Origin: Oryzias latipes
Lineage: Eukaryota > Chordata > Actinopteri > Beloniformes > Adrianichthyidae
NCBI RefSeq assembly: GCF_002234675.1
Contig: NC_019866.2
Span: 19,265,311 to 19,329,310, forward strand
Direction of reading: 5' to 3'
DNA length: 64,000 bases
Below, piece after piece: positions 5,047 to 49,463 of the stretch. How positions within the stretch are numbered: position 1 is the stretch's first letter; every line of letters begins with the position of its first letter. A program made the position numbers and the translations under genes. A model generated the notes under the pieces. The model had not been told where the DNA came from and searched no databases. It saw nothing but the letters and a program-made list of their open reading frames with translations.

Positions 5047-5599
5047 CAGTGGTCCCCAACCCCTGGGCCGCGGACTGGTACCGGTCCGTAGGTCACCTAG
5101 TACCTGACTGCAGGAAGAAAAAATCTATACGCTAACAGAGGTTATTTCCGTTTTGTTTATTCTCTGATACTGAAGAAAGTTTTATTTTGGAAAACCAACG
5201 GATTCTGCTCACCACATCTGTCTGTCTTGACGGGACTTTAAGCAGCTGCTAGGTTAGTAGCCCAAAGCTAAAAAGCTAATAAAAACCCAAAAATTGAACG
5301 TCTTTAGAAAGTTTCTTTGGGGGGAAAAGAATCAGTAAGGAAACCGAAGGAAAACTTTCAACTTCAAAGAAGTTGCTATTTACAGACAAAACCTGGAGTC
5401 ATCCTCCAAATACAGATTTATTGAGACAGCCGCTTTGCATATATATGCAGCAACTGGCTGAAATGTTTCACAAAAAATATGCAGAAAGGATGGATTCACG
5501 TTTATAATTATATTTAGAAAACACCAATTTTACGACAGTTTTATTTTGATTTATTTATCCATCATTAAAGTTGGACGCGTTTCAAGTTTCTCCGCATTT

Positions 5600-8500
5600 T
5601 AGCGGTAGAAGTTGGTTGGACTGACCCGGCACTCCGGGGCGTGTTTTATCAATCTCTCAGTGAACCCATCAAAGACCATCTATGCACCCAGCCGGAAGCT
5701 AATTCATTTGAGGAGTTGGTTGCTGCGGCCTTTCGTTCCGATATCAGGCTCCGAGAGCGCAATCTTGAACGAAGTCATATGCCCCGTATTGTTCCAGTAC
5801 GGACATCTCCTAACCTGCCAGTCTGTCCCGATCCTGGTTCTCAACCAGAGAACCCACGCGTTACCCCCGATGAACCCATGCAGGTTGGACATTCGAAGCT
5901 CATCGCGGAAGAGCGGATGAGACGACGCAACGAAGGTGCGTGTTTTTACTGCGGGGAACTAGGTCACCAGGTCAATCAGTGCAATCGCCGTTTGAAACTC
6001 CAGAACCCCCCGTTAGATGACGGGTCGCGGGGGGATAATGCTAATTCAGCAAATGAATTTTTTTTGTACCCGTCAAATTATGTCATCAGTCTAAATGGAG
6101 AATTTTCAGGCGCTCATCGATTCTGGCGCTGAACAGAGTTTAATATATCAAAATATAGTCAATCGGTTATCTCTACCCACCGAACGCCTTTCATCCCCTG
6201 TTAAGGCGGCCGGCCTCAGTGGTCAACACCTCTCGCTCATTACGCACCGCACTAAACCTGTCATGCTAGTTACCTCGGGGAATCATCACGAATTCTTGCA
6301 ATTTTTCGTTACGCACACTCCTCAAACACCCGTGGTTTTGGGGTTTTCCTGGCTTAAGCTCCATAATCCCCATCTCGATTGGAGTAACCACAATATCATA
6401 GGTTGGAGTGATTACTGCTTGAGCAATTGTCTCAAATCTGCGGTTCCTTCTATCACTGCTCCCGTTAGCGTCGAATCTGACATCATCGATCTATCTAACA
6501 TCCCTAAGTGTATTTGAAACTGGTGTTCAGTAAAGCCAAGGCCCTCTCCTTACCACCTCATAGGCCCTATGATTCTGCCATCAATCTCTTAGAGGGCTCC
6601 CCCCTTCCTAAAGGGAGATTGTTCAATTTGTCAGGCCCTGAAAAAGTGGCCATGGAACGCTACATTCAGCTAGCTCTCACCCTTGGTCATATTCGCCCCT
6701 CCTCGTCTCCTGCCGGACTGGGGTTTTTTTTTGTTCAGAAAAAAGACAAAACCCTCAGGCCTTGCATCGACTTCCGTGAACTCAATCAGATTACGGTAAA
6801 GGACAAATATTTGTTGCCCCTGATCACTTCGGTGTTTGATTCAATTCAGGAGGCGCGCGTCTTTACTAAGCTAAACTTTACCTCCGCAACGCTTATCATC
6901 TTGTGCGCATGAAAGAGGGGGATGAGTGGAAGACCGCATTTAACACCCCCATCGGCCATTACGAATACCTCGTAATGCCCTTCGGTCTCACTAATGCTCC
7001 CGCTATTTTTCAACGTCTCGTTAACGACGTCCTTAGGGACTTTTTGAATCAGTTCGTTTTCGTATACTTAGACGACATCCTAATCTATTCAAGAGATCCT
7101 GTCGTCCACCAGAACCATGTTCGTCAGGTCCTACAGAGATTAGTCGAAAATCAGTTATTTGTGAAGGCTGAAAAGTGCCAGTTCCTTGCCAACAGCATCC
7201 CGTTTCTGGGCTACATCTTTGAAGCCGGCAGCACACGTCTGGATCCCGCCAAGATCACTGCAGTCTCTCAGTGGGAACCCCCTTCTTCTCGCAAAAAACT
7301 CCAACAATTCCTAGGTTTTGCCAATTTTTATCGTCGGCTCATTAGAAACTACAGTGCTATTGCCACACCTCTCACCCAGCTTACTTCCACATCCAAGCCA
7401 TTCCACTGGGGTCCCTCAACTCAAAATGCTTTTGGTACGCTCAAGAAGTTATTCATCTCTGCCCCCATCCTCATACAGCCAGACACCTCCAGACAGTTTG
7501 TGGTCGAGGTGGATGCTTCTGACTCCGGAGTAGGGGCTGTCCTATCCCAGCGTGAAGAATCATCAGGAAAACTCAAGCCTTGCGCCTACTTTTCCAGGAA
7601 GCTATCCCCAGCAGAACGGAATTACGATGTGGGAAATAGAGAACTCCTCGCTATCAAATTGGCTCTTGAAGAGTGGCAACATTGGCTGGAGGGCTCGACA
7701 CATCCATTCATAGTGTGGACTGATCATAAAAATCTTGCATATCTGCGCTCAGCTAAACGCCTCAACTCACGTCAAGCCCGTTGGTGTTTATTCTTCGATC
7801 GGTTTAATTTTTCTTTCACATACAGACCTGGCAGCCGTAACATCAAGCCGGATGCCTTATCTCGCCAATTCTCCGACTCTGTACTCCCTGAAATCACCAC
7901 CAGCATCATTCCGGAGACCTGCATCATTGGCAACCTGACCTGGGACATAGAGACAAGTCATTCAGGCGCAAGGTGAGGAACCTGACAATCCCACACCTCC
8001 TAACGGCACTCTCTATGTTCCCCTCTCACTAAGGTCAGACGTCATCACTTGGGCTCACACCTCCCGTATCGCCTGTCACGGCGGAGTTACACGCACTCTC
8101 AACCTTGTGCGTCGACGGTTTTTCTAGCCTTCCATGAATCGAGACGTTCGAGACTACATAGCCGGCTGTTCCACCTGTGCGCCCTCCAAGTCCTCGAATT
8201 CTCCTCCAGCAGGGTTGTTACATCCTCTGCCCACGCCCAACCGCCCTTGGTCCCATATCGCACTGGACTTCGTCACCGGCCTGCCCCCGTCACAAGGTAA
8301 CTCGGTCGTACTCACCATCATTGACCGGTTCTCTAAGTTTGTCCACTTTGTTGCTCTCCCTCAGCTGCCCTCGGCCACCCAAACCGCTGACGTGTTGGTC
8401 AATCTTGTCTTCAGAAACCATCCCCTCCGACATCGTGTCCGACCGCGGACCTCAAAGTGTATCTCAAGTCTGGAGAGCCTTCTGTTCTGCTCTAGGTGCC

Positions 8501-9778
8501 ACCGTCAGCCTCTCTTCGGGTTACCATCCCCAATCCAACGGGCAGGCTGAGCGGGCCAACCAGGAGCTGGAGACTTCCCTCCGTTGTATTGCCGCCCAGA
8601 ATACCACAGATTGGGCCCGATACTTAGTCTGGGTCGAATACGCCCACAATTCCCATCCTTCCTCGGCCACAGGTTTGTCCCCCTTTGAAGCCTCACTCGG
8701 TTACTTGCCTCCTCTGTTTCCCTCTCAGGAACTTGATTTGTCCACCCCCTCCGTGCAAGAGCACCTTCGGCGATGCCAACGCATCTGGCACCAAACTAAG
8801 ACAGCCCTCCTACGCACCACAGAGAATTACTGTCGCGCAGCCAACCGCCATCGTATTGACGGCCCCACATACCAACCAGGCCAGAAAGTGTGGCTTTCCT
8901 CCAAGAACATCCCTATTCAGGCCACATCACGCAAGTTGGCTCCCCGGTTTATCGGTCCTTACACCATCGACCGCATCATCAATCCCACCTGGGTCCGTCT
9001 CCATCTTCCAGCAGCCCTTAAGGTACACCCATCGTTTCACATTTCTCAAATCAAGCCTGTTCTGGACAGCAGTTTGTGCCCGCCTTCCGCTTCCCCGCCA
9101 CCCGCCCGGCTCATTGATGATGCTCCGGCGTACAGCGTCAGCCGGATATTGGACGTCCGGCGCCGGGGTCGCGGCCATCAGTTCTTGGTGGACTGGGTGG
9201 GTTATGGTCCTGAGGAACGGTCCTGGATCTCCCGTTCCCTCATCTTGGACCCCTCCCTCATTTCCGACTTCTACCGCGCTCATCCGGATCGTCGGCCTGG
9301 ACCGCCTGGAGGCGGTCGTTAAGGGGGGGGGGGTACTGTCACGGTGCCCCTGTCTGCCCCGCCTCCTCCTGCTCTGTTCCTGATCCCACCAGCTGTGACC
9401 ACTTCACCTTCATCAACCCGTCTGCTCTTAAGGAGAGCCAGTCCATCCATTCGACGCCAGTTCGTCACCCCTTATGGTGACTACGCCTGGTCTGCCTGCT
9501 CATGCCTTGTTTACTCTCGTCTTGCCACGTTCTAACCCTGTGTATCCCTGTCACAGGATTCATCACGACGAAGGTCACCTGTGTGGAAAACCTCGGCTGC
9601 TTACCTGTTGCTACGACGAATTCCGGAGACGCTCTGCCGCTACTCTGCCTCCAGCCACGTCACGAGCCACGCTCTCGCCAAGGATCATCTTACAGCCAAA
9701 ACAGCATTGACATTAAAACACTCTTGTGATCATTCTGGGTTTCAGCGTCTGGGTCTGTCCCGCCTACTGATCATGACA
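5600..9778 (+). mobile_element. Ty3/gypsy chromovirus fossil, broken, 5'-truncated
   Basis: Parts in order on the plus strand: the end of gag with a CCHC zinc knuckle (about 5640-6060), a protease region with a DSGAE motif (about 6095-6500), reverse transcriptase with YLDD (about 6600-7350), RNase H (about 7480-7880), integrase (about 7980-8900), a chromodomain (about 9130-9280), a polypurine tract (about 9321-9335) and one LTR (9337-9778). The chromodomain after integrase places it among the chromoviruses. No 5' LTR is visible and gag is incomplete. It is broken, with a handful of breaks. Long stretches of still-readable coding sequence suggest an insertion of modest age. Confidence 0.85.
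9337..9778 (+). repeat. 3' LTR of the gypsy fossil
   Basis: It begins TGTCACGG directly after a G-rich polypurine tract and ends ATGACA, so it has the usual TG...CA ends. Length is 442 bases. It lies immediately before the short right-hand remnant of the host hAT element. Its partner LTR is not found in the window. Confidence 0.7.
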
Positions 9779-22245: not shown

Positions 22246-25012
22246 TCACAGTTCCGGCAGGCCGGGCATGGGGAACTGACCGGCAAAAGCCTCCACCTCG
22301 GCTCTCAGCGCAGCTACTCGCTCCTGAAACTTCTCTCCCTGAGCCAGAGCCTGGACAAACTCCTTCAGAGTGGCTTTGGGATCCTGGCTCCTCTGCACAT
22401 CCAGGGTCAATTCAACAGCTACAGGAAAAAACATTGGCGAAAGTCACGTTTTGCCTGAGAAACATCACTTTATGTTTTTAGGAGCATTTTTAGATGGATG
22501 GTGCACCTTTGTGGATGAACAAAGCCACCTTCTTGAAGTCTTCCTCCACCAAGCCCCTGGAGGTCAGAGCTGGAGAGCCAAACCTGAGTCCACTGGGACG
22601 GAGAGCGCTCTTGTCTCCTGCAAAAATACAACAAAAAAAAAAAAGATATTTGAAAGGTTCCTTCCCTCTTAAGCTTACAAACTGATCAACTCATTTGCAC
22701 CCCAGCTTATGTCTGAATACCTGGACAGGTGTTCTTATTGCAGGCAATAGCACAGGCCTCCAGCACCTTCTCAGCTCGTCCACCATCAGTACCTTTGTTG
22801 CGCAGGTCCAGGAGGATTAGATGGTTGTCAGAACCGCCTTTATAGAAACACAGAACATCAGAAAACATCCCATGGAAGAAAATCCATATAATTACAGATC
22901 TTACCAGTAACAATCTTGTAGCCGTGGCCCACGAGGGCATTGGACAGAGCTTTACAGTTAGCAAGAACCTGCTGCTGGTAGACCTTGAACTCGGGAGTCA
23001 TGGCCTGTTTGAGAGCCACAGCAACGCCTGTAAACCAGAGAACGGGGGAAGCAGATGCTGACATGGCTCAAGAGCTTTTAGGATGAAAAACAGAGAAGAA
23101 ATGAACGACAGGACACCTGCAATAGCGTGGTTGTGCGGTCCACCCTGCAGCCCCGGGAACACCGCCTGGTTTATCAACGACTCCAAGTTGTACAGAGTCT
23201 CTTTTCCTTTGGCATCAACACTCCTTACTCCTGGTTAAAAGTCCATTTGTTACCAAAAAAATCCTATGAAAGTTTTTCTTTTGAAATGTTATTTTTTTTT
23301 TACCTTTTCTGTAGAAAATGACTCCAGCACGGCAGCCGCGCAGCGTCTTGTGGGTCGTCGTGGAAACAATGTCACAATGCTCGAAGGGTGACGGCACAAC
23401 CCCAGCAGCTACTAAGCCACTGATGTGAGCCATATCTCCCATCAGGTAGGCGCCGTTCTCATTAGCAATCTGCTTTAAGCGGGCGTAGTCGAGGTTGCGG
23501 GAATAGCAGCTGGTTCCTACGGGCAGATGGAGACAGTTTAGGAACATTTTAAAGCAAACTTGCAGCCTGTGCATGTGTGTGCGTTTAATAACCTGCAATA
23601 ATGAGCTTAGGGTGAAACAGTCGTGCGTTGTCTTGAAGTCTGTCATAGTCGATGTAGCCGGTTTCTTGATTCACCTTGAAAGGGAAAAAAACATCAGCTG
23701 TGTGGTAACGTCCGTGTAGTTTAGATGGTTCACTCTGAAGGTGCTTCTGTTAGTTGTCACTTTTTATTCATACACTTGTGTCTTTGAGAAACATCCAGAA
23801 TTCGAGCTAACAACATATATGCATACTCATTTTGTACCTTATACGGCATGGACTCAAAGAAGATGGACGTCGCAGAGATCTTCTTCTTATCGGTCATGAA
23901 GCCGTGTGTCAGGTGACCTCCGTCAGGAAGGTCCAGCCCCATGATCCTGCCATGAGGTTCCACAACAGCCGTGTACACAGCAAAGTTGGCTGGAGAACCT
24001 TCCAGAAGAAACACAGTACCGGTAAATGAAATCCATATTTTACAGAAGAGCTGCCTCCAGAAGGTTTACATGGAGGAGCCATAAAGAGCCCAAAGAGAAA
24101 ATCAGAATCTGTCAAAATGTTTAGAAGATATCGTTTATTTTCAAATACACTAGACGTTTGGTAAATGATACCAGCAAGAATTTTCAATCCCTTTAGGAGC
24201 AACTCAAGACACTGCCCCCTACAGGTGGAGATGGGAATTGTGGTTTCTGGTTGAGTCTGCACAATAAATTGGTGAAAAAGCATAAATATTTGAGTCATTA
24301 CTTTTTGGTTTCCTGCCAATGAAACAACTTGTTTATTACATTTTTGCTATATAATTTAACTTTATTTTTCAAATTATTCATCAAAAGAGGCGAATTTCAA
24401 CTGGAGGGGCCACTAAGGTGGTCAGCAGTGTTCAGAGGTTTTCAATCACGTCGCTTAAAATCAGTCACTGCAAGAGTTTGATACCTGAGTATGGCTGCAC
24501 GTTCACTCCCCATTTCTCTGGGTCCAGACTAAAGGCCTCCAGTGCTCTCTTCTGACAAAGCCTCTCCAGCTCATCAATATGCTCTGTGCCACCATAATAC
24601 CTAAATAAACACACATCCAGAATTATAGGTAAACTAAGGTAAACTTCAGTGTTCTAGTAATGACTCAATCCTGACCTTTGGCCAGGATAACCTTCAGAGT
24701 ACTTGTTGTTCATGCAAGAACCCAGAGCTTCAAGAACAGCCCTGCTGGCAAAGTTCTCAGATGCGATCAGCTCCAAGCCGTACGTCTGCCTCTTCTTTTC
24801 TTTCTTTATGATAGAAAACACCTGAATATAAACAGAAACACTGCCATCACAACAAGCCCGACCTGAAAAACCTAAAGAAATGTTCACAGTGCTGCACGTT
24901 GGTGAGGAGAGACACAAACCTCAGAGTCGTTGACAGCCAGAGGCTCCAACATCATCTTGTTGTGAGAGTCCCAGATTTCTTTATTAATGCTGTGGCCATT
25001 CGTCAAAGCCAT
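22246..25012 (-). CDS. shmt1: Serine hydroxymethyltransferase, cytosolic
   Basis: Eleven coding exons on the minus strand: 24920-25012, 24676-24821, 24485-24600, 23838-23998, 23593-23674, 23304-23516, 23117-23230, 22905-23027, 22721-22837, 22507-22617 and 22246-22418. They total 1449 bases (482 residues; human SHMT1 483). The enzyme interconverts serine plus tetrahydrofolate with glycine plus methylenetetrahydrofolate, using pyridoxal phosphate. The PLP lysine is K256 in [11 protein letters not shown], and ASENFAS and YSEGYPGQR active-site blocks are intact. The start [12 protein letters not shown] has no mitochondrial transit peptide and the C-terminus is PMPGLPEL, both supporting the cytosolic paralogue over SHMT2. 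A T-rich acceptor at about 25047 just upstream of the start codon implies a further, non-coding 5' exon. Confidence 0.95.
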
Positions 25013-25157: not shown

Positions 25158-25166
25158 ATCATAGAC
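25158..25166 (+). repeat. 9-bp target site duplication, left copy
   Basis: ATCATAGAC directly before the foldback element's left end; the identical right copy is at 27720-27728. Confidence 0.85.
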
Positions 25167-27719
25167 ACGACGCTGAAGTTGGCTTCCGATTCACAGCTTC
25201 CGATTCGCGAAGGCACAAAAGAAACATTCCGCTGCATTTTTCGCATTAAGATCACCCAAAACCGGGTCCTGTTCAAAAACCGCTGGACCTGGACTGCTCA
25301 AACCTGGATTAAATTATACATTAGATACTAAAGAACACATTAAATATAGTTTCTGATTTGTGAAACCTTCCTCTGATTTGTGAAAATCTGAAATAGATTG
25401 ATGTTTATCGCATTTTACGCACTGAGTCCACCTTAGACCAGGTCCTGTTCAAAAACCGCAGGACCTGGACTGCTCAAACCTGGATTAAATAATAATTTAG
25501 ATACTAAAGAACACATTAAATATAGTTTCTGATTTGTGAAACCTTCCTCTGATTTGTGAAAATGTGAAATAGATTGATTTTTACAGCATTTTACGCCCAG
25601 AGTCCACCTTAGACTAGGTCCTGTTCGAAAACCGCTGGATCTGGACTGCTCAAACCTGGATTAAATAATAATTTAGATAGTAAAGAACACGTTAAACCCA
25701 GTTTCTGATTTGTGAAACCTTCCTCTGATTTGTGAAAATGTGAAATAGGTTGATTTTTATCCCATTTTACGCACTGAGTCCACCTTAGACCAGGTCCTGT
25801 TCAAAAACCGCAGGACCTGGACTGCTCAAATCTGGATTAAATAATAATTTAGATAGTAAAGAACACGTTAAACCCAGTTTCTGATTTGTGAAACCTTCCT
25901 CTGATTTGTGAAAATGTGAAATAGGTTGATTTTTATCCCATTTTACACACTTAGTCCACTTCAGACCAGGTCCTGTTCCCAAACCGCAGGACCTGGACTG
26001 CTCAAACCTGGATTAAATTATGCATTAGATACTAAAGAATACATTAAATATAGTTTTTGATTTGTGAAACCTTCCTCTGATTTGTGAAAATGTGAAATAG
26101 ATTGATTTTTACAGCATTTTACGCCCAGAGTCCACCTTAGACTAGGTCCTGTTCGAAAACCGCTGGACCTGGACTGCTCAAACCTGGATTAAATTATAAT
26201 TAAAATAGTAAAGAACACAATAAACACAGTTTCTGATTTGTGAAACCTTCCTCTGATTTGTGAAAATGTCAAATAGGTTGATTTTTATCCCATTTTACGC
26301 ACTGAGTCCACTTCAGACCGGGTCCTGTTCCAAAACCTCAGGACCTGGACTGCTCAAACCAGGATTAAATTATAATTAAAATAGTAAAGAACACAATAAA
26401 CACAGTTTCTGATTCGTGAAACCTTCCTCTGATTTGTGAAAATGTGAAATAGGTTGATTTTTATAGCATTTTACGCACTGAGTCTCAAAATCTCAACATA
26501 CAAAAGAAACTGGGAAACAGATGTCAGATTGGACAAATAGTTATGGTCATGGTTAGCATGTACCACTGACTTAAGTTTTGTTTTTCTGTTCAATATTTCT
26601 TGGTTTGTTTTCTGATTTACTTTAAAGTCCCTGTTATGGTGTTTTCCTTAAAGTTGTCCTTCCCTTGTCCCCATTATCCTTAAATTGCATAAAATTCGAT
26701 GAAATGATACTTTTTCCCACAGTGGTGTTTGAACAGGACCCGGTCTGAAGTGGACTTAGTGCGTAAAATGTGATTAAAAATCAACTTATTTCACATTTTC
26801 ACAAATCAGAGGAAGGTTTCACAAATCAGAAACAGCATTTATTGTGTTCTTTAGTATCTAAATTATTATTTAATCCAGGTTTGAGCAGTCCAGGTCCTGC
26901 GGTTTTGAACAGGACCTGGTCTAAGGTGGACTCAGTGCGTAAAATGCGATAAACATCAATCTATTTTAGATTTTCACAAATCAGAGGAAGGTTTCACAAA
27001 TCAGAAACTGGGTTTATTGTGTTCTTTACTATCTTAATTATAATTTAATCCAGGTTTGAGCAGTCCAGGTCCTGCGGTTTTTGAACAGGACCTAGTCTGA
27101 GGTGGACTCTGGGCGTAAAATGCTGTAAAAATCAATCTATTTCACATTTTCACAAATCAGAGGAAGGTTTCACAAATCAGAAACTGGGTTTAACGTGTTC
27201 TTTACTATCTAAATTATTATTTAATCCAGATTTGAGCAGTCCAGGTCCTGCGGTTTTTGAACAGGACCTGGTCTGAATTGGACTCAGTGCGTAAAATGCG
27301 ATAAAAATCAACCTATTTCACATTTTCACAAATCAGAGGAAGGTTTCACAAATCAGAAACTGGGTTTAACGTGTTCTTTACTATCTAAATTATTATTTAA
27401 TCCAGATTTGAGCAGTTCAGATCCTGCGGTTTCTGAACAGGACCTGGTCTAAGGTGGACTCAGTGCGTAAAATGCGATAAAAATCAACCTATTTGAGATT
27501 TTCACAAATCAGAGGAAGGTTTCACAAATCTGAAACTGTGTTTAATGTGTTCTTTAGTATCTAATGTATAATTTAATCCAGGTTTGAGCAGTCCAGGTCC
27601 AGCGGCTTTTGAACAGGACCCGGTTTTAGGGTGGTCTTAGTGCGAAAACTGCAGCGGAATGTTTCTTTTGTGCCCTCGCGAATCGGAAGCTGTGAATCGG
27701 AAGCCAACTTCAGCGTCGT
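25167..27719. mobile_element. Foldback-type DNA element built of opposed 176-bp arrays
   Basis: Perfect 9-base direct repeats ATCATAGAC (25158-25166 and 27720-27728) flank the element. Its ends are inverted copies starting ACGACGCTGAAGTTGGC and matching closely for about 120 bases. Inside the left end are seven tandem units with an exact 176-base period (marker GGACCTGGACTGC at 25285, 25461, 25637, 25813, 25989, 26165, 26341). The right arm has the same unit inverted about five times (marker at 26892, 27067, 27243, 27419, 27595) plus a partial. The centre (about 26490-26725) is unique and has no coding frame. Long tandem-built inverted arms and a 9-base duplication fit foldback elements or a non-autonomous Mutator-like element. 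Confidence 0.85.
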
Positions 27720-27728
27720 ATCATAGAC
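27720..27728 (+). repeat. 9-bp target site duplication, right copy
   Basis: ATCATAGAC directly after the foldback element's right end, identical to 25158-25166 and in the same orientation. Confidence 0.85.
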
Positions 27729-44900: not shown

Positions 44901-46905
44901 TCCTGCAGGGTCTTCAGCCGTTTGTCGAAACACTTGGCAGACTTGCCTTTGATCAGCTGCGGCGTGTAGGATGGTTTTTCTTCTTTGTCTCCCTCCTCTT
45001 CCCCTTCGCCACTGTCACCTCCCTCTCCAGTCAGCCCCTTTTGGCTGTAGCTGAAGGGGCTGGCTAGCTTGGCGTATTTGTCTAAAAGCTCCTCACACTC
45101 GCTCAGGCATTCGCTAACACACTTCTGGCAGCTGACGGCGTACGGGTCGCGCCGCTGACGCCGATGGTAGGAGCTGATCTGCTTCAGCAGGTCCCTGTGC
45201 TCGTAGATGCTCTTTTCCACGTTCGCCAGTTCGTTGGCCTTCTCCACGGCGTGGGCGGAGTACATGCTCTGGGGCCCCGCCTCCCTCTGCAGACCCTCCT
45301 CCTTCTGCAACACAGAGTGGGTGTACCTGAAGATAACACAAAGGTTCAGTGATCACTTTCAAACAAACGTAATTAAATATTTTCCAAAAAGAAATCAGTA
45401 AAGTGAAGTGTTTCTATCATCTGAGCTTAAAGTCCCACTCTGATAATCTTTTGATCTATTTTCAAAGTGTTCCCAGTGGTCTTTTTATTATTATTATGCC
45501 ATTTTTTAGGTAAAATCAAAAAACCTGAGTCATTTTCTAGGACATAGTTTCTGCAGAGCGACAGGAGTTCATTAGAAATTCACTTTTGAGTTGTGGGCGG
45601 AGCTTTTGGCGCAGAGCAGCCCCTCCCCCACTTCTTGTCACCCTTCTGTTTACACGCTCTCCCACTAGCTTACAGCCCCTCATACCCCCAACCTAACGTT
45701 ACCGGTGCAACAAAAATGGTGAGCAATATTGCAGCTATCCAGCCTTTCAGTATTGAGGCAGAAGTCAGCTCAGACGAGGAAAACTTAGAAGTAAAAGAAT
45801 CTATTCATTCATTCTATCCAATAAATCTATATATATATACATATAAGATAAATCTATTTATCCAAAAGTGGATGCATGAGAATGGAGTGGAGCAGGGAGC
45901 TTGTGGGCCCCTCAGTGTATTTTCCTCGTAAAAAGTAGGATCTTTTTCGTACTGCATTGATCGGCTGCTACGGATTCACAACAATTTGAATAATGAGAGC
46001 AATTTGTTGCAGGTCCTAATTGTCTTTATCTTCTCTATCAGGAGAAAATTGCCACAAGAACATCTTAAAAACATGATTTTTATCAGAATGGGTCTTTTGT
46101 CAAAAGTGAAATAACAAAACTAACTTTTTCTAAGATCACTAAGGTGTCATGAGACGGATTTTTTTTTTTCTACTCAAGAAACCAAACAAATACTAAACCG
46201 CAAAATATTTTTTCATCCCTCTGGAAACTTTTGCCCCCATGACTCAACTTGCACCATTTTCTTGCATCCTGAACCAGGAAGGATGTGAATGAGAAGGAAA
46301 CAGAAATCTTACTCGAGGTCTTGAAGTTTTCTCTGGAGTTCTTTGGCGAATGCTCTCCTGTTTCCAGCTTTCAGGCACTCTGAGGCCTGTGAGAAGCGGA
46401 GTGATAACTCTTGAAACTGCTGCATGATTTTCTTCTCATCCGCTGTAACATAGGCCATGCAGAAAGGCCGCACAAAGCCCCTAGCTTCCAGGTCATAAAG
46501 GGTGAGGTGATGGACATAAGCAAACGCCCCCTCTTTGGAGTCCCCCAGTACCACCCTGGAGTCCTCTACAAAACTGAGCCTCGGATAGCCGCTTCCAGGT
46601 GTGTGACCCACAAAGGAGGCTTGGTAGTCCACGGACATGATGCGCAGGGAGAAGTAGTTGAGATCAAAGGTGCCACACACTTTAGGATCATCGGGGATGG
46701 TGAGGAGAGGCTGAGGGCCCACCTGCTCAGAGAACTCTGAAATGAGGATGAAGTCTTTGATGAATTTGGCATAAGACGTTTTGGCCCACGGGTTGGAGTC
46801 GGCCGGTGGGTGGAGAGAAACCGAAAACTCCTCTGGGAGAGGAGACGAGTCTGGACTAGACTCATCCTCTTTAGTGAAAGCCACCACATCCGGGGAGCCG
46901 ATCAT
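41922..46905 (-). CDS. smcr8: SMCR8, subunit of the C9orf72-SMCR8-WDR41 complex
   Basis: Three coding exons on the minus strand: 46313-46905, 43653-45326 and 41922-42375; 2721 bases, 906 residues (human 937). The chosen start MIGSPDVVAFTKE aligns with the human start MISAPDVVAFTKE; an in-frame Met pair 18 codons earlier is less likely. The N-terminal longin region has FILISEFSEQVGPQPLLTIP and GTFDLNYFSLRIMSVDYQ. A long acidic serine-rich linker follows (about residues 330-680), then the C-terminal DENN portion with QYPFSMQALWCLLSGRTLVV, WKLIGLQR and LSRYSRYISILD. The complex acts as a GTPase-activating assembly for small GTPases and in autophagy and lysosome signalling in the cytoplasm. The human gene has its coding sequence in two exons; here the first is split by a 986-base intron. 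Confidence 0.95.
45427..46100. mobile_element. TTAA-flanked repeat of the 'FEP' family, copy B
   Basis: It begins TTAAAGTCCCACTCTGATAA at 45427. Its right end, near 46085-46098, reads AGAATGGGTCTTTTG, but TTAA is no longer intact there. Inside, ATG at 45716 opens MVSNIAAIQPFSIEAEVSSD, parallel to the peptides of the copies at 15742 and 59578. It fills most of the intron that splits SMCR8's first coding part. Confidence 0.6.
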
Positions 46906-49463
46906 AGTGGTTCTGCCAGGAAAGGCATTAGAGACAGCAGCACCACAGACAGTCATCAAGAAACCCGCCAGAACAGAACCACAGAAAGTCTGCTGAGACT
47001 TCTCATGATGGTCAGATCTTCACACATCTCAGTGCTGGAGGTGTGATCATGAGAAACTCACAGAAGCATCAAAAGACTGGACACAAAAATCTATTATCTA
47101 TGCAGCCATATTGAAGCACGGAAATAAAACGAGCTCCAGTTTGCATGAGTCTAACTTAAAAATGTGTAGCTCTTAAACACAGCTTTGTAGCGCCAAGATC
47201 CGCGTTCCAACAGGCAGCAAATCATCCTTTTTTCTGCAGAAAGAGAAACAGGAAAAGCGGCATCAGGGAAGAGCGTCCGTCCCTCTTTTCCATCTGTTCT
47301 TGAGTCCAAGTCTCCCGTCCATCGTGTTTTTCAGGACAGGGCTGAAGTGCGTCGCTCTGATCCACACAAATGTCGATTTTCAGACAGCAACGCTCTCACA
47401 CATAGACAGACGCCATGTTTATCAGCTGGACTGTGCTTGGTCATGTGACTCATCCTCCTCCCCCTCCGGAGGAAGTCCACCCCGAACCGGAAACTCATCT
47501 TTTTTGCTCTTTTCTGGAAATAAAAATATATTCTATAATACTGTAATTCTTCATAAATACAGAAATATATTGTTGCTTAAGTGCATAAAAAGGCATTAAA
47601 CAACTGTGCCAATAAAATGCTAAATGGAATTAATGAAGATGTAAAACATAGAAGTTTCAGTTTTACAAGTTGGTTTATGAAAGCTTTATAATTATTACAG
47701 CCCATAACAGTATTTGGACATAAAGTAAAGGTCTTTTTAAATAACACAAACAAACGATAGAAATAAAATTAGGACGTTTATCCTCAATTTACAAATATGA
47801 GAGTACTCTTTGGCTAATAATGATCTTCTGATTTGTCCTAACTGCAAAAACACTATTTCTTTTACTGTTTGTACATCATTAGACATGTCTTTAATACAGC
47901 CAAAACTGAATAAAATAAACCCAAAATTTCTACGCAGAACTAAATGAAACAAAAAGTCTTGATACTTATGTGTTTCAGAAAATAATTTAAGCAATAAGTA
48001 TTTTAGACAACCAATTCATTCATTCATTCATTCATTCATTCATTCATTCATTCATTCATTCATTCATTCCTGTTTGATGCATTTACTGAAAGTGTGGTTA
48101 AAAGGTTTTTTCCTTCCAAGTTTTCCATTGATTTAATCTTAATATTTACAGTACAAGTCAGACTAAATTTGAGCCTGTGCTAATCAGATTATTGTAATTT
48201 AAGATAAATTTATGACAAAAATATGACAATTACGGAGGTAAACACTGAGGTATTATTTCAGTTATTGTTATTAACATCATCATTATTATCAATGCATGTA
48301 GCCTGCATAAAAGTACTAAAAAATAAGATGATTCTCCACTTCTGGCCCACATGGTCTGAGAACAGCTAAGACATGCAGGGGTTTTCAATTTGATATTTGC
48401 AAAGACTGCAAAAGTTTTTGAAAATAAAATGAAAAATAGAAGAATATATTTTTAAGGAAAACACACAGCCAATGTTCCCTTTTTTTTCAGGTGTCCTGCA
48501 AATGCATCCATGTGTGTGATTTTAATAAATTAACTGTTAGTTTCTGTATTTATTTATTGTTTGTTTGTTTTTATTAGTTTATTTGACAGGGACAATGTGC
48601 AAAAACATTAAATATGCTTTACACCAGAAGACTGCCAAAGCTAGTTTCCATCTGTTGTCCCTGAACAGGTTAAAATACAAAAAAATACAATGTAAATAAG
48701 CGTCCTTAGTCTATTCTAAAAGTGAGACAGGATGCCCAAAGTTTACTTTTTATATACTATCTTGTAAACTTGTTCCAATTCATTAAGATGAAGTATTTTT
48801 TTAGCGTACTTCAGGCACTACACATACATAGTTTGCGGTATACTTGCTTAAACCTAAGTGTACTTAATAAAATAAACTTCGAGTGTGGATGCTACTTTTT
48901 GCTAAGTCATGTATTTCTATAAAGAAAATTCTGATTTAGGGTGTATTCCACAAAAGAGTCATACAAGTTATCATTTACATTTTTGTGCATTAATATATTA
49001 CATTTGTATGGAAGCTTTTGCATTCAATGCGTTTGATTAGAAAATTGTAGTTATAATATCGCAAACATATAACGTTAAACAACTAAATAAACAAAAAACC
49101 AAAATGTTTAGAAAAAACTTTATTAAGACGCCCAGCTGGTTACAAGACTTTACGACAGTTTAACAACCAGATTGACGGCAGAATTTGACAAGTGGGCGCG
49201 TATTTTTGTAAACAGCCATGAGTGACCTAATTTAACACTTTTCTTGATGCTATTCAATAGGTTCTTGTTTGTTGGCCTTCTTTCTGTGTAACTGTCTTCC
49301 TTCTAATCGATCCCTTTCATCCAGTAATAATTTTAAAGGCACCTGGAAACTTTGTTTCTGTTGATGCCTACAGCTAGCTCCGTCAGCTAGCATGCCAACA
49401 CCGCTTACAGCAGCTGAGAGGCTGCCCGGAGGAGCGGCTGTTCCTGGTAAAAAAGAATAGGTA
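46906..49463. promoter_or_regulatory. Intergenic region between SMCR8 and TOP3A starts
   Basis: The part up to about 47520 is the likely SMCR8 5' UTR and promoter (CCCCTCCGGAGG-type GC patch at 47460-47475). The middle is AT-rich with an (ATTC)n run and no gene. The last 300 bases before 49464 are the TOP3A promoter side. The head-to-head arrangement matches human, but at 2.6 kb the gap is too wide to call one shared promoter. Confidence 0.5.
48014..48069 (+). repeat. (ATTC)n microsatellite
   Basis: Fourteen uninterrupted tetranucleotide units. Confidence 0.95.

Follow-up and report, generated by a model that had tools for sequence, protein, structure and literature searches.

The foldback element at positions 25167–27719 of the window, i.e. 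the whole stretch of 64 000 nucleotides of medaka (Oryzias latipes) DNA that we analyzed, is probably a non-autonomous foldback cut-and-paste DNA transposon derived by internal deletion from a Rehavkus-like (Mutator-related) parent. Far more tentatively, we propose recent activity of a Rehavkus-like lineage in a vertebrate, with a parent PHD-DDE gene that carried a ubiquitin-protease-like last exon and with non-autonomous derivatives that spread as transposase-binding repeats were gained and lost in both arms.

Two perfect 9-bp target-site duplications, both ATCATAGAC, are present in the sequence of the window (25158–25166 on the left and 27720–27728 on the right). The 2553-bp element between them is delimited by these duplications and by its termini, the left one beginning ACGACGCTGAAG and the right one finishing CTTCAGCGTCGT; 59 of the 60 outermost bases of the terminal inverted repeats are identical between left and right. 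The left outer repeat (25167–25262, + strand; 96 bp) carries a pair of TTCCGATTC motifs with a 14-bp spacing and adjoins an array of 7.0 copies of a 176-bp unit (25261–26484, + strand; 91% matches). On the other side, 5.3 copies of the same unit, inverted relative to the left array (26724–27652, – strand; 90% matches), adjoin the right outer repeat (27625–27719, – strand). The arrays enclose a unique centre of 239 bp (26485–26723, + strand), which comprises the end of a parent gene's last exon together with 3΄ sequence; the relic of the coding exon end (KISTYKRNWETDVRLDK, then a stop codon) occupies positions 26481–26540 on the + strand. Because the longest ungapped inverted pair extends over 728 nt per arm with a complementarity of 93%, the strands would be likely to snap back into a stem. 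Long, internally repetitive inverted arms around a variable middle, a feature of the foldback class, were observed in this element and in other copies. An earlier note on this DNA had described a 2.55-kb element with 9-bp duplications, terminal inverted repeats, opposed 176-bp arrays and a unique centre, and this description was right to the base. Its proposal of a recent insertion of a non-autonomous cut-and-paste element is likewise supported, since the element has no coding capacity and close copies are near-identical in the centre.

We searched the medaka genome (734,051,031 bases, 25 contigs) for the terminal 26-mer with at most three mismatches and obtained 347 places (179 forward and 168 reverse); the reversed 26-mer, used as a control in the same search, gave 0 places. 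The window and 28 other loci with such ends (L009–L036; L001–L008 are sites of the same set) were read, a non-random sample chosen from the best or first-listed matches. Both ends were present in 26 of these 29 loci, and L023, L027 and L031 displayed one end in the stretch fetched. The 9-bp duplication was perfect in 21 of the 26 end-paired copies and contained one mismatch in four, with all 25 nine-mers distinct; the remaining copy (L025) was without a duplication, and duplication lengths other than 9 bp did not fit the end-paired copies. When left and right nine-mers were compared across different elements, none of the 650 cross-pairs matched. The agreement within elements (25/26) as against cross-pairs (0/650), together with the 347 terminal 26-mers as against none for the control, indicates that the duplication and the termini are not products of chance. 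This outcome agrees with the expectation, set in the earlier note, that several genome copies would bear differing 9-base duplications. Among the 25 copies that bear a duplication, all but one had two ends identical at no fewer than 56 of 60 bases, each end retaining four to seven CpGs; in the exception, L036, the ends agreed at 31 of 60 bases, probably owing to an indel. Outside the duplication, the flanks displayed an apparent weak palindromic preference, with AACT ahead and AGTT behind. One copy (L033, C4:17389400–17398400) is a compound foldback, in which the left end and the centre are each present twice and the right end once; the outermost pair of ends is flanked by the duplication.

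We also joined the flanks of 25 copies across one duplication and compared them only with the window and the loci already retrieved. A paralogous empty site turned up for at least three copies. That of L013 was matched in L036, L039 and L044 with 94–95% identity, and the nine-mer GTGTTTGCC is single in these empty relatives and double around the element. Empty sites were also found for L019 (L006/L022, which are one site, at 88–92%), L018 (L023 at 82%, and L012/L007, again one site, at 75%) and L026 (L038 at 71%). A 53-bp match of the joined flanks of L012 to positions 45446–45498 of the window was left out, and the spanning matches J_L009 and J_L036 were dropped as empty sites, being those copies' own flanks. 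A second transposon of ~1.6 kb (ends GGGGCCTCATTTATAAA, with a Myb/SANT-like ORF), perhaps a member of PIF-Harbinger/ISL2EU, is inserted in foldback units in L036, L039 and L044, and the converse nesting, a foldback copy inside a copy of this transposon, was observed in L013. The Myb/SANT-like ORF in L036 and L039 was accordingly rejected as a gene of the foldback family, being part of this separate insertion.

The 239-base centre was 100% identical in six of the 26 paired copies (the window, L009, L010, L012, L013 and L015), the arrays of which range from 4 + 5 up to 14 + 7 units. An identical centre in six copies with differing array lengths suggests that the burst of this family was recent. 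The centres of other paired copies exhibited 88–98% identity, and a centre match was absent in L011 and L034. We compared the arms of 24 copies, excluding L033, which is compound, and L036, which carries a LINE. Unit counts varied from 1 to 14 in the forward arm and from 1 to 38 in the reverse arm, and were equal in one copy. The rank correlation between the two arms was weak (Spearman 0.42, P = 0.04) and the relation was not linear (Pearson 0.08); in other words, the independence of arm lengths is incomplete.

The 84 full units of the six young copies were assigned to 23 types, 7 of which occur in both arms. Blocks of units were found to be duplicated, namely GHE three times in L009, AC in L012 and L013, and FBDDx twice in L015. 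The mean unit identity in these copies was 0.923 between the arms of one element, compared with 0.917–0.920 between elements; because these values and those within arms are nearly equal (0.917–0.923), identity does not demonstrate arm-to-arm exchange. We read the duplicated blocks as unequal exchange, and exchange from arm to arm has perhaps contributed as well. Young copies that share one centre and carry very unlike arrays make the growth and shrinkage of satellite-like arrays traceable inside a transposon. In L035 (C14:19932000–19940040), which is flanked by a perfect 9-bp duplication, one arm consists of ~38 units (6.7 kb) and the other of 3, and the grown arm may represent an intermediate on the way to such an array of satellite type.

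The 176-bp unit contains two CTGATTTGTGAAA motifs with a spacing of 20 bp, which look like a CpG-to-TpG decayed form of the TTCCGATTC motifs of the outer repeat. The observed/expected CpG ratio, 1.6 for the first 60 bases, was 0.49 across the left array. Of 2000 Markov-resampled controls, 2.6% reached the score obtained on aligning the first 70 bases with the unit, which points to a weak likeness between unit and terminus. By analogy with Galileo, the units are putative transposase-binding sites. We envisage that a transposase supplied in trans by a longer copy would bind the termini and excise the element, and that reinsertion would proceed via a 9-bp staggered cut. The units might act as additional or degenerate binding sites, and array lengths would shift by unequal exchange, perhaps including arm-to-arm exchange favoured by the foldback geometry.

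At the position of the centre, fuller copies have the end of an intron with the splice acceptor ttcacacag, followed by a stop-terminated exon of ~62 codons; young copies retain only ~18 final codons of this exon. Judged from these signals, the centre is the last exon and 3΄ end of a larger gene. The last exon resembles, by eye, the C-terminus of a ubiquitin protease; Pfam and PDB searches with it gave no match, and a search of the genome yielded 88 matches at E ≤ 1. A longer upstream region is common to three of the more diverged matches (L047 on chromosome 7, L048 on chromosome 11 and L041 on chromosome 17). Read on the gene strand, the chromosome 7 relic starts with the outer repeat, which matches at 87.5% across 96 bp, fragments of the unit and a PHD-like ORF (CAQCSCCRDWFHANISPWCCPSC). 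It continues with frames that resemble, by eye, the reverse transcriptase of an inserted LINE and with LYFDATG, followed by a second-D region in which the D is lost, LCAAH, DSNAVVENWFRKIK (NAVVENWF), a further exon and the last exon. A relic on chromosome 18 matches the PHD exon at 23569878 (85%; residues 21–87 of 90, i.e. only the finger's end and the following part) and has DDE parts at 23570357 and 23574274, with TDFSW and LCAAH retained. The outer repeat and the unit were absent in the 5 kb read there (L051), and a last-exon match beside the DDE parts was absent among the matches listed. Both relics bear stops and neither is intact, and the PHD finger is a pattern recognized by eye in one of them (chromosome 7), without a Pfam match. 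The apparent PHD-like finger and the putative CxxH-bearing DDE-type transposase of the longer element were seen in broken relics only. Six last-exon relic places lie within 0.4 Mb at C13:1.28–1.69 Mb, perhaps as a result of segmental duplication.

No intact source copy or intact transposase of the foldback family was found in the genome searches. Two long copies were rejected as autonomous, as the length of L035 (7.9 kb) is due to its 38-unit arm and that of L036 (6.1 kb) to a LINE and the second transposon. The one-ended loci were also rejected: L027 and L031 contain large retrotransposon ORFs, and L023 displayed nothing decisive. As a longer source, L037 proved to be merely a further array copy, and the exon match in L038 was discarded as a parent gene because it is set among unrelated reading frames.

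An intact DDE-type transposase-like ORF of 626 aa (P0001) was identified on chromosome 24 (L050, C24:1543800–1548300; positions 899–2776). The relics matched P0001 with E = 2e-24 (chromosome 18) and with 3e-13 and 9e-12 (two parts of chromosome 7) in a search space of 18.8 kb. Its residues D185 (LDATG at 184), D258 (ETDHS at 256), C305xxH308 and E498 (HVERWF at 496) are colinear with the DDE motifs of the relics, except for the second catalytic D lost on chromosome 7. P0001 has 46 matches in the genome; its search gave no Pfam hit above the curated cut-off and none in NCBIfam or PDB, and no relatives were found in the viral contigs searched. More generally, the Pfam, NCBIfam and PDB searches returned no name for any relic or relative protein tried. 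For the MULE domain PF10551, a genome search at E ≤ 0.001, in which six first-look candidates were scored and which a degenerate or intron-split copy could escape, gave no match, and the domain was also unmatched in the relic peptides tried and in the chromosome 24 ORF. AlphaFold models of the relative were poor (mean pLDDT 39.0 and 40.6), and a fold search listed 743 matches at E ≤ 10, none of which reached E ≤ 0.001. In IS256-type and hAT transposases, the available portion of one report places a C/DxxH motif inside an alpha-helical insertion (PMC7780238). Downstream of the P0001 ORF, a segment (L050:4135–4326) resembles Ulp1 protease by eye. Open frames of 325–364 aa with YLDAT, CDGS and HRCLSH motifs in L054, L055 and L056 exhibited 24–26% identity to P0001 and may represent another unnamed transposase-like group.

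A 9-bp duplication, an outer repeat of ~96 bp, which falls within the terminal inverted repeat range of 26–400 bp, and minisatellite arrays near the ends are Rehavkus features present in this family, which also shows the terminal inverted repeats and the duplication within 8–11 bp of MULE/MuDR elements. The element could be a classical Mutator-like (MuDR-type) element moved by a MULE transposase, which its duplication length and long terminal inverted repeats would fit. According to the accessible text of two reports, 206 MULE-MuDR copies were counted in medaka in a 2016 survey (PMC4746887), and CxxH is common to MULE and hAT transposases (PMC5225508). However, the genome search for PF10551 described above was without a match, and both the PHD-like finger of the relic and the terminal tandem arrays of the family have been reported for Rehavkus; we regard a MuDR-type origin as unlikely. 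The earlier note had called the element a foldback and likened it to FB-type and some Mutator-like elements. The foldback form and the ~9-bp duplication bear this out, but 'Mutator-like' was a loose term, given that PF10551 is unmatched in the genome and that the longer relatives resemble Rehavkus more than classical Mutator.

Alternatively, the foldback element might be unrelated to the transposase of the relics, having captured the exon and been mobilized by another type of transposase (e.g. P or hAT). P and hAT elements generate 8-bp target duplications, compared with 9 bp here, and not only the exon but also the outer repeat is common to the chromosome 7 relic. Exon capture is thus quite improbable, even though the foldback form occurs in other superfamilies, as the available part of one report describes for Galileo of the P superfamily (PMC4079207). 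That inverted satellite arrays were built in place by recombination, with no transposon, is scarcely credible: long tandem arrays of up to 38 units in one L035 arm would suit such a process, but it is refuted, for the copies read, by 9-bp duplications that differ from copy to copy, by the constancy of the termini and by the empty sites. Many of the unit matches listed fall inside these copies. Descent by internal deletion from a Rehavkus-like parent is the reading that we prefer.

Several known systems are comparable. FB elements of Drosophila melanogaster (FB/FB-NOF) combine the foldback form with a 9-bp duplication, and are likened here by form, not by sequence. Galileo, a P superfamily foldback element, is unlike the medaka family in its P-type transposase and in a target duplication of a length other than 9 bp. 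As far as the available text of the source goes, Galileo does share long, internally repetitive terminal inverted repeats, in which the repeats carry extra transposase-binding sites (PMC4079207). The same text describes Tetris, a foldback element of Drosophila virilis, with an outer flanking domain, ~220-bp tandem units in the terminal inverted repeats, a variable middle, 8–10 bp duplications, a varying unit number and no autonomous copy found (PMC4079207). Tetris has a fly host; the medaka family is represented by hundreds of ends and also by longer relics with coding sequence. Muta1, a MULE of Aedes aegypti, has duplications of 8 or 9 bp and a DDE transposase with CxxH according to the portion available (PMC5225508), and differs in that no Pfam MULE-domain match was obtained in the medaka genome. 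In the accessible parts of two reports, the Rehavkus group is characterized by a 9-bp duplication, terminal inverted repeats of 26–400 bp, a PHD finger and a minisatellite (PMC6446971), and Rehavkus-1_TC of Tribolium castaneum by inverted termini and short arrays, mostly of 5 and 8 monomers of a 164-bp unit (PMC10218199), as compared with 7 and 5 units of 176 bp here. In contrast to Rehavkus-1_TC, the host is a fish, the present copy is non-autonomous, and the parent gene has a ubiquitin-protease-like last exon (by eye). The likeness to Rehavkus is one of structure and relic motifs, not of Rehavkus protein alignment.

The label MULE-NOF covers both FB/NOF and Rehavkus. In the available part of a 2016 comparison of four teleosts, it appears with a single value, 1159 copies, which we read as zebrafish (PMC4746887), and it is listed for Orestias too (PMC11184842, in part); the elements themselves are not described in the accessible text of either. 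A 2019 survey, in the portion available, reported Rehavkus in arthropods and annelids only and called the listed vertebrate MuDR elements mis-identified (PMC6446971). The available text of the Rehavkus literature (PMC6446971, PMC13359780, PMC10218199, PMC4438587) covers insects, arthropods, annelids and broad eukaryote tables with no fish family, and the words 'Rehavkus' and 'foldback' are absent from a review of mobile elements in ray-finned fish (PMC7599744). The view of the earlier note that this form is seldom described in fish fits the literature examined, with the qualification that two fish surveys, as far as their text was available, list MULE-NOF (PMC4746887, PMC11184842). The foldback family may already be named in Repbase or Dfam. 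The fish MULE-NOF labels would gain substance from a medaka family in which 9-bp duplications are clear and PHD-DDE relics survive.

Within the window, the element lies ~150 bp upstream of the start-codon exon of a serine hydroxymethyltransferase gene (24920–25012, – strand; 31 protein letters), which, judged from the protein sequences, is probably shmt1, with smcr8 and top3a as probable neighbours. Since a plausible 3΄ splice site lies on one side and a CpG-rich stretch (27.6–28.4 kb) on the other, the element is probably located in the first, non-coding shmt1 intron, and the CpG-rich stretch may be a candidate shmt1 promoter. Elsewhere in the window, frames of a Ty3/gypsy-type retrotransposon (zinc knuckle, reverse transcriptase and integrase) were recognized by eye in the ORF list at 5569–9403, and a perfect (ATTC)14 microsatellite occupies positions 48014–48069.
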